From NCBI GenBank assembly GCA_903879715.1, contig CAIRMR010000096.1:1-64000 (forward strand): 64,000 bases of DNA. Reading direction: 5' to 3'. Each line of letters begins with the position of its first letter. Within the stretch, counting starts at the first letter, position 1. Origin of the DNA: an uncultured Bacteroidales bacterium (GTDB taxonomy: Bacteria; Bacteroidota; Bacteroidia; Bacteroidales; UBA4417). Below are positions 2,900 through 43,962 of this stretch, one piece after another. The notes under the pieces were generated by a model. It had not been told where the DNA came from. It saw only the letters and a list, made by a program, of their open reading frames with translations, and searched no databases. A program made the translations under genes and the position numbers.

Positions 2900-3946
2900 T
2901 TATTTAACAAGATTTACATTCATAGCAGTAAGCATATTACCGTAAACCTGGTTGAGAGCACTTACACGCTTGGTAAGCTGATCTATTTCCTGCTGATATT
3001 TGCTCATATTCGAAGAGGATTCATTCATACTGTTGAGGAATGAACCAACAGTAGACCTGAGCTGGTTGGTGGTTTCAATCTGCTCATTGGAACTCCTCAG
3101 CTGCACTTCATAAATAGTATTTAAAGCGGCCAGGTTACCCGAAATTTTCTGTAGCTGGTCATTGTAAGCTTTACTGTCGATTGCACTGAAGTTTAACATT
3201 TCGGCAGATTTACTTAATAATTCGGCAGAGATATTATATTTTTCAGATAATCTGTTTGCCGATTCAGTGGCTGAAGCCATACTATTGGAGAATGTTTCGG
3301 TAGCTGTCATTTCCTTTTTAATAGCCGACGATACTTCGGTATACACTGTTGCCAGATCACCTGCTGAAGCTGCGGCAGATTTTATACTTGTTGAAAAATC
3401 CCCAACAGATACGGCATCCTGTTGAAGAACATCGCTAACTCTTTTATAGGATGAGGATAATTCACCGGCTGATTTACCAGCGTCTTTTACATTTTTAACA
3501 AAATCCTCAGTAGCAACAGCCGTACTGGTAACATCTGACATTTTGCTTACATTCTCGCTCATTTTCCGCATTCCGTCGCCCAGGCTTTCAATAAGTTCCG
3601 GACCTATTTTTGCTTTGGAAAGCATATCATCAAGATCCTGTGTAACAGTTTTGCCTGATGCAGTCCTTTTGATAGAACCTGGGGTCCCTGGTTTGCCTTC
3701 GTGATACATTCCGGCTAATTCAGGATATACAAGGCTCCAATCGGGTTCAACATGCGGGTTTTCAAATGCCGAAAAGAAAAAGATAATTGCTTCGGTTGAT
3801 AAACCCAGCATAAGCATCTCATTTGCATATGGTAAGTGTATAATTTTGAATAGTGCTCCCATAATTACAACAGCAGCGCCTATACCATACAACTTTGCCA
3901 TAAAGTTTTTATACCCTTTACTACTTACGAAACTTGAAAAACTCAT
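2900..3946 (-). CDS. gldL: Type IX secretion/gliding motor protein GldL (PorL)
   Basis: Inner-membrane motor partner of GldM. I chose the internal ATG at 3946 (348 residues, starting 'MSFSSFVSSKGYKNFM'), because GldL proteins usually begin close to the 'KxxxNFMAKLYG' segment. A longer frame opens at 3976. Two transmembrane helices lie at about residues 20-60 ('GIGAAVVIMGALFKI' and 'STEAIIFFFSAFE'). The acidic residue in the second helix is the type of residue implicated in proton use. A long cytoplasmic Ser/Ala-rich coiled-coil tail follows. Confidence 0.95.
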   Translation of the reverse strand: MSFSSFVSSKGYKNFMAKLYGIGAAVVIMGALFKIIHLPYANEMLMLGLSTEAIIFFFSAFENPHVEPDWSLVYPELAGMYHEGKPGTPGSIKRTASGKTVTQDLDDMLSKAKIGPELIESLGDGMRKMSENVSKMSDVTSTAVATEDFVKNVKDAGKSAGELSSSYKRVSDVLQQDAVSVGDFSTSIKSAAASAGDLATVYTEVSSAIKKEMTATETFSNSMASATESANRLSEKYNISAELLSKSAEMLNFSAIDSKAYNDQLQKISGNLAALNTIYEVQLRSSNEQIETTNQLRSTVGSFLNSMNESSSNMSKYQQEIDQLTKRVSALNQVYGNMLTAMNVNLVK

Positions 3947-4021
3947 GATGAAATATATTGAAGTGATTAATGACATTTACTGAGTATTAATAAACTAACA
4001 CTCAAAAAGTAACATTTGATT

Positions 4022-5380
4022 TTAGTTATAAATCCTTGAAGCTCTGGCAGGATTATCGTCTTTCTGGCGTCCCATAAAGTCCTGAACACAGCGGAAGCCA
4101 ATATAACATTTGGACGAATCCTGGTATTCGTAAGCACGGGTCGATACCTGCAGGTAATAAGCTATATCTTTCCATGAACCTCCGCGTACAAGTTTACGTT
4201 TCATTAAAGGAGGATCATCGTCTTTAGCATTATACATATAAGTAGGGTTCATATCCCAGGTAAACTGGCTGGCTGATTCGTCGTATGCGTCGGCACACCA
4301 TTCGGATACATTCCCTGACATATCATAAAGGCCGAAATCATTAGCAGGATAATGTGCTACGATAATAGTACGTGCGCCACCATCATCAGCATAATTTCCA
4401 CGCAATGGTTTAAAGTTGGCCAGGAAACAACCTTTGTCGTTCCTTGTGTAAGGTCCACCCCATGGGTACGGACTCATTGTATTACCTCCGCGAGCAGCCC
4501 ATTCCCATTCAGCTTCAGTAGGAAGCCGGAATTCATTAGGAATTGCAGTTTTCTTTTGTTGCAGGAAGGATTCCAGTAATCGTGTACGCCAAACACAGAA
4601 TGCACTGGCTTGTTTCCAGCTTACTCCGATTACAGGATAGTTATCATAGGCCGGATGCCAGAAATAACGCTGTGCAACAGGGTCATTGTAACTGTATGCA
4701 TAATCGTGAAGCCATGAAAGTGTATCAGGATATACATTGATAACTTCCTTGCGTACATAAACCGAACGATCTTTCATCCCTTGCGGACGGTTTGCAAAGT
4801 TTGCATTTTTCGTATCCCCGGACTGTGAATAGTCTTTTTTGGATGCTGCAAGCAAATCTATATAGTAGTACTCGTAAAAGAGTTTACGTGTGTCTATTTC
4901 TTTTTTCCTGTAAAATCTTTCATTTTCAGGCAGGAACATAGGTTCCAACGCATCACGGTTTTCTTCGGTATCCCATTCCAGCTCAGCTTCCCAGTTGAGG
5001 TACGGAGGATCATAGACTTCACCTGTTTTTTTGTTTTCCGAAATCAGGAATTCATCGGGATTTATTTCACCAAGGATCCGGCGGGCAAGAGAATCTTTCA
5101 CCCAATAAACGAACTGACGGTATTCGTTATTGGTAATTTCAGTTTCGTCCATGTAAAATGCCGTTACCGTTATGGTACGTGGATTGTTCAGATGCGCGTA
5201 GGGCACATCCTGATCTCCCGTTCCCATTGTATAACTTCCCAGTGGCACATATGCCATTCCAAAGGGATCGGGCTGATAAAATTTTTCCCGGGATTGAACG
5301 CCTATAAGTTCACCATTTCCGCTATTACTGCAGCTGGCAAAAAGTATTGCAATCAGTGAAATGCAAAGCAGTTTTTTCAT
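4022..5380 (-). CDS. gldK: Type IX secretion/gliding lipoprotein GldK (PorK)
   Basis: Outer-membrane lipoprotein that forms the periplasmic T9SS ring with GldN. A lipoprotein signal ends in the lipobox 'LFASC' (Cys17). The body is an FGE-sulfatase (formylglycine-generating enzyme-like) fold, with 'VPLGSYTMGTGD' near the start, 'FRLPTEAEWEWAARGG' in the middle, and 'YDMSGNVSEWCADAY' and 'LVRGGSWKD' near the end. The 452-residue length fits GldK. The gene is 75 bp upstream of gldL and 225 bp downstream of porP. Confidence 0.96.
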   Translation of the reverse strand: MKKLLCISLIAILFASCSNSGNGELIGVQSREKFYQPDPFGMAYVPLGSYTMGTGDQDVPYAHLNNPRTITVTAFYMDETEITNNEYRQFVYWVKDSLARRILGEINPDEFLISENKKTGEVYDPPYLNWEAELEWDTEENRDALEPMFLPENERFYRKKEIDTRKLFYEYYYIDLLAASKKDYSQSGDTKNANFANRPQGMKDRSVYVRKEVINVYPDTLSWLHDYAYSYNDPVAQRYFWHPAYDNYPVIGVSWKQASAFCVWRTRLLESFLQQKKTAIPNEFRLPTEAEWEWAARGGNTMSPYPWGGPYTRNDKGCFLANFKPLRGNYADDGGARTIIVAHYPANDFGLYDMSGNVSEWCADAYDESASQFTWDMNPTYMYNAKDDDPPLMKRKLVRGGSWKDIAYYLQVSTRAYEYQDSSKCYIGFRCVQDFMGRQKDDNPARASRIYN

Positions 5381-40061: not shown

Positions 40062-41447
40062 TTATCCAAAGAGCATGCAACATCCTGAAGATGGCTCGGC
40101 TTCAGCAATGTCGTCAGCAGAAATGAGAATATATGCACTTTTAGTTTTAGAAGTAATGCGATAACGATTATCAATTCTTTTTCCAATAACCCAGACAATA
40201 TCATTTCCTGAAATGAGTAACCAGGTTTTCTCTTTTTCGGCAAGGGAGAACTTCTGGTCGATAAAAAAATCACTCAACTTTTTCCTGCCTTTCAAACCAA
40301 GAGGAATAAACCAGTCTCCTTTTTCCCATTTTCGAAGTTGAAGCGGAAATATAAGTTTATCCAGGTCAATGCATGCAATGGATGACTTACCCATCGGAAG
40401 ATCAATAACCACATCGGTTTCATAGGCACACAGGCTTATCGGTTTTTCCAACTCTGTAATTCCTTTATTTAAAGGATAGATTTCACTTTGAGCCGGCTCT
40501 GATGCTAATTCAGTTAATGGCTGGATAATAAAGTTCTCGCGATCACGCAAAAGGCGGTGAGTAGGCGAATAGAAAACTTTCCCGGAGAATGTATCGAGAG
40601 AGTGTACAATTTCTTTTACCACTGAAAATGTAAACCCAAAAGGCTTGAGCAATTCGAACAGGTAAGTATCATGAGGCTCGTATTCGTAAACCCAGTCAAT
40701 CGAAATAAGGATTCCTTCGGCGGTATGCTGAACAAGGTCGGCGGTTATTCCGGCTATATGATTGTGGTAAATGGATTCAACTTCACGGAGATGGCTGATG
40801 CTTTCGTTGAGCTTGTAACTGAATTGGGGATTAATTTTATACAGTTCCGAAAGTACATCCAGTCGGAGTTTGTTACGAAGGTATTTTCGGCTTTTATTGG
40901 AACTGTCATCGTGCCAGGCAAGATTCATATCCAGCGCAAACGACATGATTTTTTCACGGGTGGTGAACATCAGGGGCCGGATGATTTTTCCTTGTTTTGG
41001 CATAATACCGTGCATTCCGCTGATACCGGTGCCCCGCAAAAGATTGATAAAAAAAGTTTCGGCCTGATCGTCCAGATGGTGAGCCGTTGCTACATAACTA
41101 TATCCATTTTCATTAACGATTTCATCGAACCATGCATAGCGAAGGTCACGCGCAGCCATCTGAATCGAAACTTTGTGATCGGCAGCGTATTGTTTAGTAG
41201 TAAAAATTTTGCTGTAGAATGGAACGTCCATCTTACCAGCCAGATTCTTCACAAATGCTTCATCACCATCGGATTCCACTCCTCGTAATCCAAAATTAAC
41301 ATGCGCGATACCGAAATTATACCCGGCATCCTTAAACAGTTGCACCATGACAATTGAATCCACTCCCCCACTCACAGCAAGCAAAACACGATCTGACTGA
41401 TCGAATAATCCTGAAAATTTAATATACGCTTTGAAAGCCTGTAACAT
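40062..41447 (-). CDS. tilS: tRNA(Ile)-lysidine synthetase
   Basis: Essential enzyme that converts C34 of the CAU-anticodon tRNA-Ile to lysidine with ATP. The PP-loop SGGVDS is at residues 26-31. 'YVATAHHLDDQAETFFINLLRGTGISG' and 'IRPLMFTTREKI' complete the N-terminal domain. The C-terminal TilS domain includes 'RKWEKGDWFIPLGLKGRKKLSDFFIDQK', which is diagnostic. Length 461 is normal. A perfect -7 box lies only five nucleotides before the ATG, so the transcript may be leaderless. Confidence 0.96.
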   Translation of the reverse strand: MLQAFKAYIKFSGLFDQSDRVLLAVSGGVDSIVMVQLFKDAGYNFGIAHVNFGLRGVESDGDEAFVKNLAGKMDVPFYSKIFTTKQYAADHKVSIQMAARDLRYAWFDEIVNENGYSYVATAHHLDDQAETFFINLLRGTGISGMHGIMPKQGKIIRPLMFTTREKIMSFALDMNLAWHDDSSNKSRKYLRNKLRLDVLSELYKINPQFSYKLNESISHLREVESIYHNHIAGITADLVQHTAEGILISIDWVYEYEPHDTYLFELLKPFGFTFSVVKEIVHSLDTFSGKVFYSPTHRLLRDRENFIIQPLTELASEPAQSEIYPLNKGITELEKPISLCAYETDVVIDLPMGKSSIACIDLDKLIFPLQLRKWEKGDWFIPLGLKGRKKLSDFFIDQKFSLAEKEKTWLLISGNDIVWVIGKRIDNRYRITSKTKSAYILISADDIAEAEPSSGCCMLFG

Positions 41448-41527: not shown

Positions 41528-41689
41528 CTAGGAATGTCCCCCAATAATAATCCTCATAATTTTAAGATTAAGCACAAAAAAGCGAACAATCTGCCAGGGG
41601 AAAAATTTGCGCCAGAAACGCGTATTCCCGGTTGGAACAGGAGGGTATGCTTCGTCTTTATATCCTTTAACTATATTTTTCTTTATCAT
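41528..41689 (-). CDS. 53-residue basic protein beside the SQR-like gene
   Basis: A short reading frame that a 60-codon cut-off misses. It begins 'MIKKNIVKGYKDEAYPPVP', has an aromatic/basic centre 'TRFWRKFFPWQIVRFFVLN', and ends 'RIIIGGHS'. The composition is protein-like (ordered aromatic, Pro and Gly placement, amphipathic C-terminal half), and it starts with ATG 55 nt after the SQR-like stop on the same strand. I infer a real small gene, possibly a membrane-peripheral partner of the flavoprotein. No named family is recognised. Confidence 0.65.
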   Translation of the reverse strand: MIKKNIVKGYKDEAYPPVPTGNTRFWRKFFPWQIVRFFVLNLKIMRIIIGGHS

Positions 41690-41744
41690 TTTCAGGAGGA
41701 ATTAGGCTGTTAGACTGTTAGTGAAATAAAATTACATTTTGAGC

Positions 41745-43202
41745 TTATTCAGGTATCAACCACCAGAATGGCAAGGCTTTAGCCTTATAAATAAACATAA
41801 AATGCAAAACAAGTTTAATCCAATGTCCAGCCAGCCCGGGTTCGCCCATGGTATAGCTTAGATCACGGCCCCATTGAGGAAATTTTTCATAATCAGGCAC
41901 AACAGGAAAGACGGTCATGGTAGCAGCCATGCCATCGCGTAAGCCATAACCTGACGAAATGATACAAGCGGCACCCATTTTACCCATCGAAGCTTTATGC
42001 TTCATCTCTTTGCTGCCTGTTTTAATACGTTCAGCAACATTCAATGCAACAACTTTTCCCATAATCCCTGATGGCATACCTGTGCGGGGCGGTGTCGGGA
42101 AAATTGCCAGCCCGTTTTTATTAGTCATAGGTTTCGAAATGGCATGTGGAGGCGCAAACGCTATTCCGGCCGCAAAAATATTATCATACTTAGGATTTTG
42201 ATAAACTGATGGCCAATCGGCAACTGACCAGTCTTCAAATTCTTTTGGTTTATAATCAGCATCTACTTTCATAAAACCACTGGGTGCGAACAGATCAGAT
42301 GTGATTTCGGCACCATCTTTGGCAAATGCCTTAATTCCCACTCCGGCAAATGCGGGAATAAGCATGGCAAAATCGAAATCCTGCACATGTATTTCGCCAT
42401 CAAGTGTCTGGTAATGCGCCTTTCCCTGTTCAAGTTTTGTAATTCCCGCGCGCTTGATCCATTTAATACCATATTCGGAGAGAATGGATTCTGAAAAAAT
42501 CCGGGTTGAAGTCACATAACCGCCTTTTTTGATAAAAGCGCCACCCATCCCGAAATCACCTACTTCGTATTCGTTGGTGATCCACGTGATCTCAGCCATA
42601 TCGTTGAGTTTCCGCTTGTTTATTTCAAAAGCCACATTCAAGGCATATTCAAAAGCCGCTCCCTGGCAAGTAGCAGTAGGATGCCCGGTACCAATCAGGA
42701 ATCGTTGTTTTTCGCCTTTCGCCATTTTATCGAGGGATAGCTGTAGCTTTTCCCATGCATGCCCTGCATGTAAGTATGTGCAAACTGATTCGCTGTAACC
42801 TTCAGGGCCCAGACCTTCGGTTGCTCCAAAATTAAGTTTGGGACCGGTAGCATTTATCAGGAAATCATATTCTATTTTATCCGTTTGCCCAAGTTTATAG
42901 TGGCCAGTGTACTCAATAGCAACATAGGGTCTTGAAATATCTGTATCGCCTTCGGGAAACAAAGCAGTAGCTTTCGCTTGTTTATAGTCAATACCTAGTT
43001 TTTTATAAACAGGCGCTAATTCGAAAGTGACATTCTTTGCGGTCATCTGGCCTATACCTACCCATATATTGGAAGGAATCCACTGGTATTTTGTGTTAGG
43101 ACTTATAACGATTACCTCATGTTTACGCCCTAGTTTACGTTTTACAATCTGCGCAGCAGTGTGTCCGGCAATACCGGCACCAAGAATTACAACCTTTGAC
43201 AT
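41745..43202 (-). CDS. Sulfide:quinone oxidoreductase-like FAD-dependent protein
   Basis: Membrane-associated flavoprotein of the SQR/NDH-2 superfamily. I start at 43202 (485 residues), directly before the FAD motif 'VVILGAGIAGHTAA'; a frame opens at 43235. 'YDFLINATGPKLNFG' and 'DNIFAAGIAF' are the usual second FAD regions. Cysteines at 'ESVCTYL', 'TATCQGAAFEYA' and 'MGAACIISSGYGL' are placed like the three SQR redox cysteines. A C-terminal amphipathic stretch ('HWIKLVLHFMFIYKAKALPFWWLIPE') should bind the membrane. Sulfide as substrate is likely but unproven. Confidence 0.88.
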   Translation of the reverse strand: MSKVVILGAGIAGHTAAQIVKRKLGRKHEVIVISPNTKYQWIPSNIWVGIGQMTAKNVTFELAPVYKKLGIDYKQAKATALFPEGDTDISRPYVAIEYTGHYKLGQTDKIEYDFLINATGPKLNFGATEGLGPEGYSESVCTYLHAGHAWEKLQLSLDKMAKGEKQRFLIGTGHPTATCQGAAFEYALNVAFEINKRKLNDMAEITWITNEYEVGDFGMGGAFIKKGGYVTSTRIFSESILSEYGIKWIKRAGITKLEQGKAHYQTLDGEIHVQDFDFAMLIPAFAGVGIKAFAKDGAEITSDLFAPSGFMKVDADYKPKEFEDWSVADWPSVYQNPKYDNIFAAGIAFAPPHAISKPMTNKNGLAIFPTPPRTGMPSGIMGKVVALNVAERIKTGSKEMKHKASMGKMGAACIISSGYGLRDGMAATMTVFPVVPDYEKFPQWGRDLSYTMGEPGLAGHWIKLVLHFMFIYKAKALPFWWLIPE

Positions 43203-43347: not shown

Positions 43348-43962
43348 TCAAAACTTCATGCGCTTGATTTTCTTTTCATAATAATTTTTTCCTTCTTCAG
43401 TACAGATGCCACGGATAAATGTATCAAACATCACATCAAAAAGTACAGAGAATGAAATGCCTTCGTTTGGAAAAAAGTCAGGGTTGTGAATATCGATAAG
43501 CCGGCTCATGTATATCCGGGCAACAAGTTCAGTACTCAGATCATGACGGTACATACCCTGTTGCATTCCTATTTCGAAATTTGATTTGATTTTGGCGTTT
43601 ACAAAACTGATACGCTTTTCGACAAATTTCTGCCGCACTTCAGGAAATCTGGATCGTAAATCAAAAGTTATACTCGGCAAAATATAGTCAAACTTGTCGT
43701 TTATCTCTTTGCTTACAACCAATAGGTCATCAATCGAGTTAGTCCCCTCAAAATCAAATTCCGAGAAAATATTTTCCAGATTCTGCTGCTCAAAATTCAA
43801 AATTTCCTCCACCAACCCGGCTTCTGAGCCAAAAGTATTCACCAGAGTAGCTATTGGCAGGTTCAGTTCTTTGGCAAGATTCTGAAATGTAAATTCATTC
43901 GATTTATAGCCGGAAAGTAATTTCCGTACATCTTCAACCAGAGGAAAGTTGGAATCGCGCAT
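43348..43962 (-). CDS. TetR/AcrR-like transcriptional regulator
   Basis: 204-residue protein with a helix-turn-helix at about residues 22-50 ('FTFQNLAKELNLPIATLVNTFGSEAGLVEEIL'), followed by an all-helical ligand/dimer domain, as in TetR proteins. The N-terminal helix is more diverged than usual ('VEDVRKLLSGYKSNEFT'). Its nearest neighbour is the leftward SQR-like gene 113 bp downstream, which it might control. The ligand is unknown. Confidence 0.8.
   Translation of the reverse strand: MRDSNFPLVEDVRKLLSGYKSNEFTFQNLAKELNLPIATLVNTFGSEAGLVEEILNFEQQNLENIFSEFDFEGTNSIDDLLVVSKEINDKFDYILPSITFDLRSRFPEVRQKFVEKRISFVNAKIKSNFEIGMQQGMYRHDLSTELVARIYMSRLIDIHNPDFFPNEGISFSVLFDVMFDTFIRGICTEEGKNYYEKKIKRMKF

Follow-up and report, generated by a model that had tools for sequence, protein, structure and literature searches.

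Sulfide:quinone oxidoreductases (SQRs) provide one of the points at which electrons from sulfide enter respiration and photosynthesis, and they are described in passages of the literature as monotopic flavoproteins. Among the six SQR classes, type IV (SqrD) has CT0117 of Chlorobaculum tepidum as a well characterized representative, and CT1087 is a type VI enzyme (passages of PMC4584964). An Ala just before the third Cys, at the position of Val331 in TrSqrF, is given in a passage of PMC9666304 as a peculiarity of type IV, and type VI is described there with a short C-terminus carrying one helix. For Thiocapsa roseopersicina, PMC9666304 also describes sqrD, a genetic system and a strain without SqrD, SqrF and FccAB. 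The passages taken from PMC4584964, PMC12285230, PMC9666304, PMC12403661, PMC3368242, PMC5061849 and PMC7952632 name no small SQR subunit. Nor was a small subunit of a bacterial SQR described in the titles and abstract openings of the open-licence PMC, among the matches listed.

Small subunits are familiar in other oxidoreductases. CydX of cytochrome bd is a short hydrophobic protein with a transmembrane helix, whose gene lies beside that of the large subunit and is easily missed. Flavocytochrome c sulfide dehydrogenase (FccAB) is a two-subunit sulfide oxidase in which the small subunit is a haem protein.

The locus compared here with these systems lies in the window, that is, the whole stretch of 64,000 nucleotides analysed (contig CAIRMR010000096.1, uncultured Bacteroidales bacterium). 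The relevant features, all on the minus strand, are the following:

40062..41447, minus strand: tilS, with TilS domains; downstream neighbour of the small gene in close relatives only
41528..41689, minus strand: small-protein gene, 53 aa, proposed small subunit of the type IV SQR
41690..41744, minus strand: spacer of 55 nt from the SQR stop to the small-gene start
41745..43202, minus strand: SQR assigned to type IV (SqrD-like), 485 aa from the ATG at 43202, with Cys141, Cys179, Cys413 and Ala412
43348..43962, minus strand: presumed TetR-like gene, 204 aa, upstream of the SQR; also found in close relatives (68–99% identity)

The small frame consists of an ATG-initiated run of 53 codons and a stop, with the translation MIKKNIVKGYKDEAYPPVPTGNTRFWRKFFPWQIVRFFVLNLKIMRIIIGGHS. 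Since the SQR frame has its stop at 41745–41747 on the same strand, the spacer is exactly 55 nt, and both the position of the gene and this distance were as the original prediction had given them. A simple consensus scan of the spacer found neither a terminator nor a sigma-70-like promoter on the minus strand. As many as 63 frames of at least 35 aa are present in the 9 kb around the small gene; because chance frames of similar length are so frequent in the region, the case for a gene rests on conservation. Matches were found in 22 of 60 related genomes, and they include another copy from the genome to which the window belongs. Selection was evaluated on 17 full-length copies (the window, the second own copy and 15 relatives at 83% identity or higher), hand-chosen for end-to-end alignment, with shorter or more remote copies left out. 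The frame was open and free of indels in all 17. Variable sites were found at 49 of 53 third codon positions, at 16 of 53 first and at 6 of 53 second positions, and the pooled pN/pS of 0.083 indicates purifying selection. Compared with locus L026, where the protein is identical, the window shows 12 synonymous and 0 non-synonymous changes. The small frame is therefore a real gene under strong purifying selection. The frequency of similar frames nearby is what could favour a chance open frame without coding function, but the codon-position pattern, the low pN/pS, the absence of stops and indels in the 17 copies and the existence of homologues in other phyla leave this explanation with a negligible probability, and it was ruled out on conservation. 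The checks proposed with the original prediction, namely a homologue search, a look for frame-disrupting indels in close relatives and a Ka/Ks-type comparison, thus all came out in favour of a real gene.

The second copy in the window's genome forms a pair of its own (L164, on G000:C211), with an SQR at 2993–4447 and a small gene at 4504–4662 that encode proteins 88% and 98% identical to those of the window. No tilS match was found within its 10-kb locus.

The window SQR matched the A. ferrooxidans SQR with a phmmer E of 9e-33, and the model of the SQR from locus L027 superimposed on 3t2y with a Z of 40.3 and an rmsd of 2.0 over 399 residues, which corresponds to the two-dinucleotide-binding flavoprotein fold. 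Cys141, Cys179 and Cys413 align with the three Cys of the A. ferrooxidans enzyme, and the three catalytic cysteines were invariant in 40 out of 40 SQRs paired with a small gene. The residue before the third Cys, Ala412 in the window, was Ala in 35 of these 40, the five others having Val (L141, L144, L147 and L156, remote second copies of Chlorobiaceae) or Ile (L139). The protein encoded at 112431–113885 of genome G165, which we take to be, very probably, CT0117 of C. tepidum (map position estimated from gene numbers), shares 66% identity with the window SQR. On the same kind of estimate, the weaker SQR relatives at 1.02 and 0.83 Mb of G165 presumably correspond to CT1087 and CT0876. The window SQR thus resembles the known type IV enzyme in overall sequence, in its three catalytic cysteines and in having the Ala typical of type IV. 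It differs in that the published passages describe SQRs as monotopic flavoproteins and name no small subunit, whereas a small gene lies here behind SQRs of the class. This includes the CT0117-like gene itself, behind which the small protein reads MGNYKFKAYYDEAYPPVPDKATLFWRKFIPWQLFRFFILNIKMIRIVVGGHS.

A tree built from 52 SQRs places the 39 that have a small gene and the 13 that lack one on opposite sides of a single branch with a support of 100/99, although the tree has long branches, that of L212 above all. The probable CT0117 (L195) was placed within the paired group and the probable CT1087 (L212) outside, the identity of G165 being our assumption. From the catalytic Cys, Ala412 and this grouping, the window SQR is assigned to type IV (SqrD class). 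Type VI (SqrF; CT1087 and T. roseopersicina SqrF) belongs to the same enzyme superfamily, but the probable CT1087 locus gave no small-protein match at E ≤ 1, and the other SQR types examined were also without a small gene. A label of selenoprotein type III SQR (NCBIfam NF049943) was rejected for the window SQR, with 47.6 bits against a cut-off of 525.

A divergent SQR subgroup (L141–L147, L156 and L162), for which five measured rows gave 38–44% identity with the SQR of the window, was found on the paired side of the tree. Its hosts are Chlorobiaceae-like genomes, as second copies, and one other family, and it has its own short small protein with other ends. Since this subgroup also carries a small gene, the pairing may reach slightly beyond the Ala-defined type IV.

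The small proteins share a core close to Q..[RK]F..[LI][NS].[KR], from which few copies depart, L022 for example, while their C-termini vary by subgroup (GGHS in that of the window; RKH, GGHGGTR, HHEKTA and others elsewhere). Six examples had a net charge of +5 to +10 and a helix hydrophobic moment of 0.28–0.39. Judged from these values, the helix suits the membrane surface better than a transmembrane placement, although two examples reached a 19-residue Kyte-Doolittle mean of 2.06. CydX is likewise a short protein encoded beside the large subunit of a membrane oxidoreductase; it is transmembrane, whereas the helix here has conserved charges and looks interfacial. With FccAB the likeness is in the flavin subunit, which shares the SQR fold (1fcd, Z 28.7), and the difference in the small subunit, as the haem-binding CxxCH motif was absent from the family, whose alignments have no conserved cysteine at all. 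No family of Pfam, NCBIfam or PHROGs was matched by the window small protein at E ≤ 1. Eight further copies, one of them given without its first residues, matched nothing in Pfam and gave one chance-level match in NCBIfam (E 0.15). Among PDB sequences at E ≤ 5 nothing relevant was found, the neuraminidase and carbonic anhydrase matches at E 1.8–4.4 being judged as chance.

The association with the SQR was examined within the phylum in a set of 395 genomes, among which Chlorobiaceae-like ones are numerous, and which yielded 120 small-protein and 121 SQR matches. Of the 120 small-protein matches, 106 closely follow an SQR in the same orientation, at a distance of −3 to 257 nt with a median of 45 (from match to match, the SQR stop included). 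The other 14 comprised 5 strong matches, each about 210 nt or less from a contig end, and 9 weak ones (E ≥ 3e-4), not near any SQR; in G256, a strong match near a contig end is still beside a C-terminal piece of SQR. Conversely, 106 of the 121 SQR matches carried the small gene, and the 15 without it were 12 remote paralogues (38% identity or lower) and 3 SQRs at contig ends. The latter are pieces in G319 and G256 and an intact SQR in G216, where the 330 nt of contig behind it hold no small gene; the small gene of G216 is on another contig, about 90 nt from its end, and the locus was read as split.

Two further sets, overlapping in part, gave the same picture. In the related genomes, a complete or partial SQR precedes the small gene on the same strand at 21 of 24 places; the remaining three (L009, L011 and L013) are at contig ends. 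In the named genomes, 80 of the 127 loci found were examined, and in 77 of these 80 the small gene lies downstream of an SQR, or of what remains of one, in the same orientation, the spacers measuring 6–725 nt (median 53); the three without (L034, L035 and L041) are each at a contig end. The longest spacers, 721 and 725 nt in L048 and L054, each hold a frame of 137–140 aa (4341–4754 and 4407–4829, respectively), presumably of the four-helix-bundle type found as a 23S-rRNA intervening sequence. As controls, a widened small-protein profile was run on 14 SQR loci, namely the 12 remote paralogues, the type I SQR of a Methylocella plasmid and the probable CT1087, and gave no match at E ≤ 1; one of them, L230, ends before any downstream gene and is uninformative.

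In the sets searched, the small gene is found behind type IV SQR and otherwise only at contig ends or as weak matches. The synteny check suggested for the prediction therefore held, with an SQR upstream wherever the contig allows and few qualifications, and homologues, synteny and purifying selection agree in strongly supporting a gene tied to the SQR. In some loci (L025 4579–4941, L080 4715–4966 and L089 4245–4944) the SQR has large internal or N-terminal deletions beside an intact small gene, the first residues of the L080 SQR running directly into the third-cysteine region; these are either decayed copies or assembly faults. In L140 (3099–3620), there is a stop in the SQR and the end of the small protein is altered, and both genes look broken, as if lost together.

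The original prediction had also placed the gene between the SQR and tilS. This is correct in the window, where tilS begins at 41447 on the same strand, and in close relatives, but beyond them the SQR is the constant neighbour. As tilS adjoins in close relatives only, membership of the small gene in a tilS unit was rejected, and tilS is probably not part of the system. For the 204-aa product of 43348–43962, which we take to be a TetR-like regulator, no match was obtained in Pfam or NCBIfam at E ≤ 1.

Outside Bacteroidota, the pairing was found in three plasmid records and in a metagenome bin (L053) labelled Aminicenantes, which may be misassigned. A tblastn search with the window SQR in 72,556 plasmids gave 36 records, only three of which, from Thiodictyon, Sulfurovum and Marivivens (gamma-, epsilon- and alphaproteobacteria), reached 54–58% identity, the next best being at 32%. 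Each of these three SQRs has a "hypothetical protein" of 52–53 aa directly downstream with the same core motif, and the reciprocal plasmid search with the Sulfurovum small protein returned exactly the same three records at E ≤ 1. No small-gene match better than the chance-level E of 0.52 in L238 was obtained at seven plasmid loci whose SQR-like genes have 25–32% identity; among these, the assignment to type I SQR was verified for L210 alone.

We infer that the small protein is produced together with the type IV SQR and binds it, and that it acts at the membrane or quinone side, where it would be needed for SQR activity. In the proposed arrangement, its basic amphipathic helix (about residues 31–52) would be located in the membrane interface, next to the one amphipathic helix at the C-terminus of the SQR and roughly at the position that the second C-terminal helix occupies in type I SQRs. 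There it would help to anchor the SQR and shape the quinone entrance, and type IV SQR would consist of two parts instead of one monotopic protein.

The comparison with type I enzymes bears on this arrangement. The solved structures closest to the window SQR are of type I (A. ferrooxidans 3KPK/3T31 and A. aeolicus 3HYV), but the A. ferrooxidans SQR has an extra C-terminal segment in cis, EPFYEKVLFKMMGITRLK. By alignment, the type IV SQR ends where the A. ferrooxidans and Methylocella type I enzymes continue into a further C-terminal segment, and the type IV models have one C-terminal helix, at residues 457–474. The small helix was compared with the second helix of type I using a type I profile of four sequences, and an equally good score was reached in 1190 of 5000 shuffles of the columns. 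Since the similarity is no better than in shuffles, homology to the type I helix is not claimed, and an origin of the small gene as a split-off type I helix is not supported by the sequences. In addition, the SQR-like controls L200 and L231 have neither the extra C-terminal segment in cis nor a small gene; the lack of the helix alone therefore need not imply a partner. Among the loci viewed, the two genes were not noticed in a naturally fused form.

Structure models were obtained by folding the SQR and the small protein as read-through fusions with linkers of 36 codons (model 1, L027) and 3 codons (model 2, L042). These fusions are artificial, and they were judged by pLDDT and by the end points of the structural alignments only. 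Confidence was good for the SQR, the mean pLDDT being 83.0 for model 1 and 84.3 for model 2, and moderate for the small helix, with blocks of 55–80 in model 1 and of 59–72, with a tip at 46, in model 2. Against the Aquifex SQR (3hyv_A), the rmsd was 1.8 and 1.9 over 410 and 411 residues, and in each model the aligned region ran on to the final residue of the small protein (574 of model 1 to chain residue 417, and 541 of model 2 to 416). The alignment with A. ferrooxidans 3t2z_A entered the small helix, up to residue 563 in model 1 and 533 in model 2, but nine of the ten A. ferrooxidans rows per model stopped before it, at residues 481–492. Rows for human SQR reached the helix in model 1 (two of four) and not in model 2. 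For soluble CoA-disulfide reductases and similar enzymes (3cgb, 6pfz, 4eqr and 1xhc), too, the alignment ended within the small protein in each model, which makes this end point unspecific. The models are thus compatible with the small helix standing in place of the second type I helix, which they do not establish, and these rows slightly lowered our confidence in the mechanism and in its boldest form. The membrane-surface or quinone-side partner of the original prediction is still plausible, since the amphipathic helix is basic and the fusion models, which are compatible with it, lend weak support.

With all of this considered, the evidence leans somewhat towards the small protein being an accessory subunit of type IV SQR at the membrane/quinone face, with the helix placed as proposed. 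The boldest reading goes further, with type IV SQRs as obligate two-subunit enzymes in which the membrane helix closing the quinone pocket is contributed in trans by a universal subunit of about 38–55 residues. This we regard as possible and rather doubtful, and equally tentative is its extension to the type IV SQR holders among green and purple sulfur bacteria, Sulfurimonas and many Bacteroidota.

The gene pairing would be the same if the small protein were an assembly or maturation factor, acting in FAD insertion, membrane targeting or folding and absent from the finished enzyme. A small basic amphipathic protein could conceivably bring a monotopic enzyme to the membrane; no known maturation-factor domain was matched, which does not separate this explanation from the subunit model, and we hold it to be unlikely, though worth keeping in view. 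Its basic, membrane-active character could also fit a membrane-bound regulator or linker that couples the SQR to a sulfur-handling or respiratory complex, or a sulfide sensor that tunes it, and the hosts, which are of quite different metabolism, could use different partners. However, of the neighbours, tilS and the TetR-like gene were examined and both accompany the pair in close relatives only, and the lack of a conserved cysteine leaves no obvious residue for redox or sulfide sensing, which makes such a role distinctly unlikely.

Plain co-transcription of two genes that both help in sulfidic habitats but do not depend on each other, physically or functionally, would account for the common strand and the mostly short spacers. 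It is a poor explanation for a pairing that persists in Bacteroidota, Campylobacterota, Alpha- and Gammaproteobacteria, and in which, within the sets searched, a gene without its partner occurred only at a contig end, as a remnant or as a weak match; we consider it very improbable.

The accessory-subunit reading would have several consequences. The gene may encode a small second subunit, so far without a name, of an enzyme hitherto treated as a single protein. If so, expression and kinetic studies of type IV SQR performed with the large gene alone would be incomplete for one of the six SQR classes. The view of SQR as a monotopic protein acting by itself would then have to be revised for type IV, and genomes could be screened for this class with the small gene as a marker. 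Active SQRs in general are reported, in a passage of PMC9666304, to be difficult to express in foreign hosts, and leaving out the small subunit might bear on this difficulty.

A different small gene was observed among the seven plasmid loci with more distant SQR-like genes. A DUF2892 gene is close to the SQR-like gene in five of them (L210, L237, L238, L241 and L242), upstream or downstream of it and on both sides in L210, and its product is possibly another small membrane partner of plasmid SQR-like proteins.
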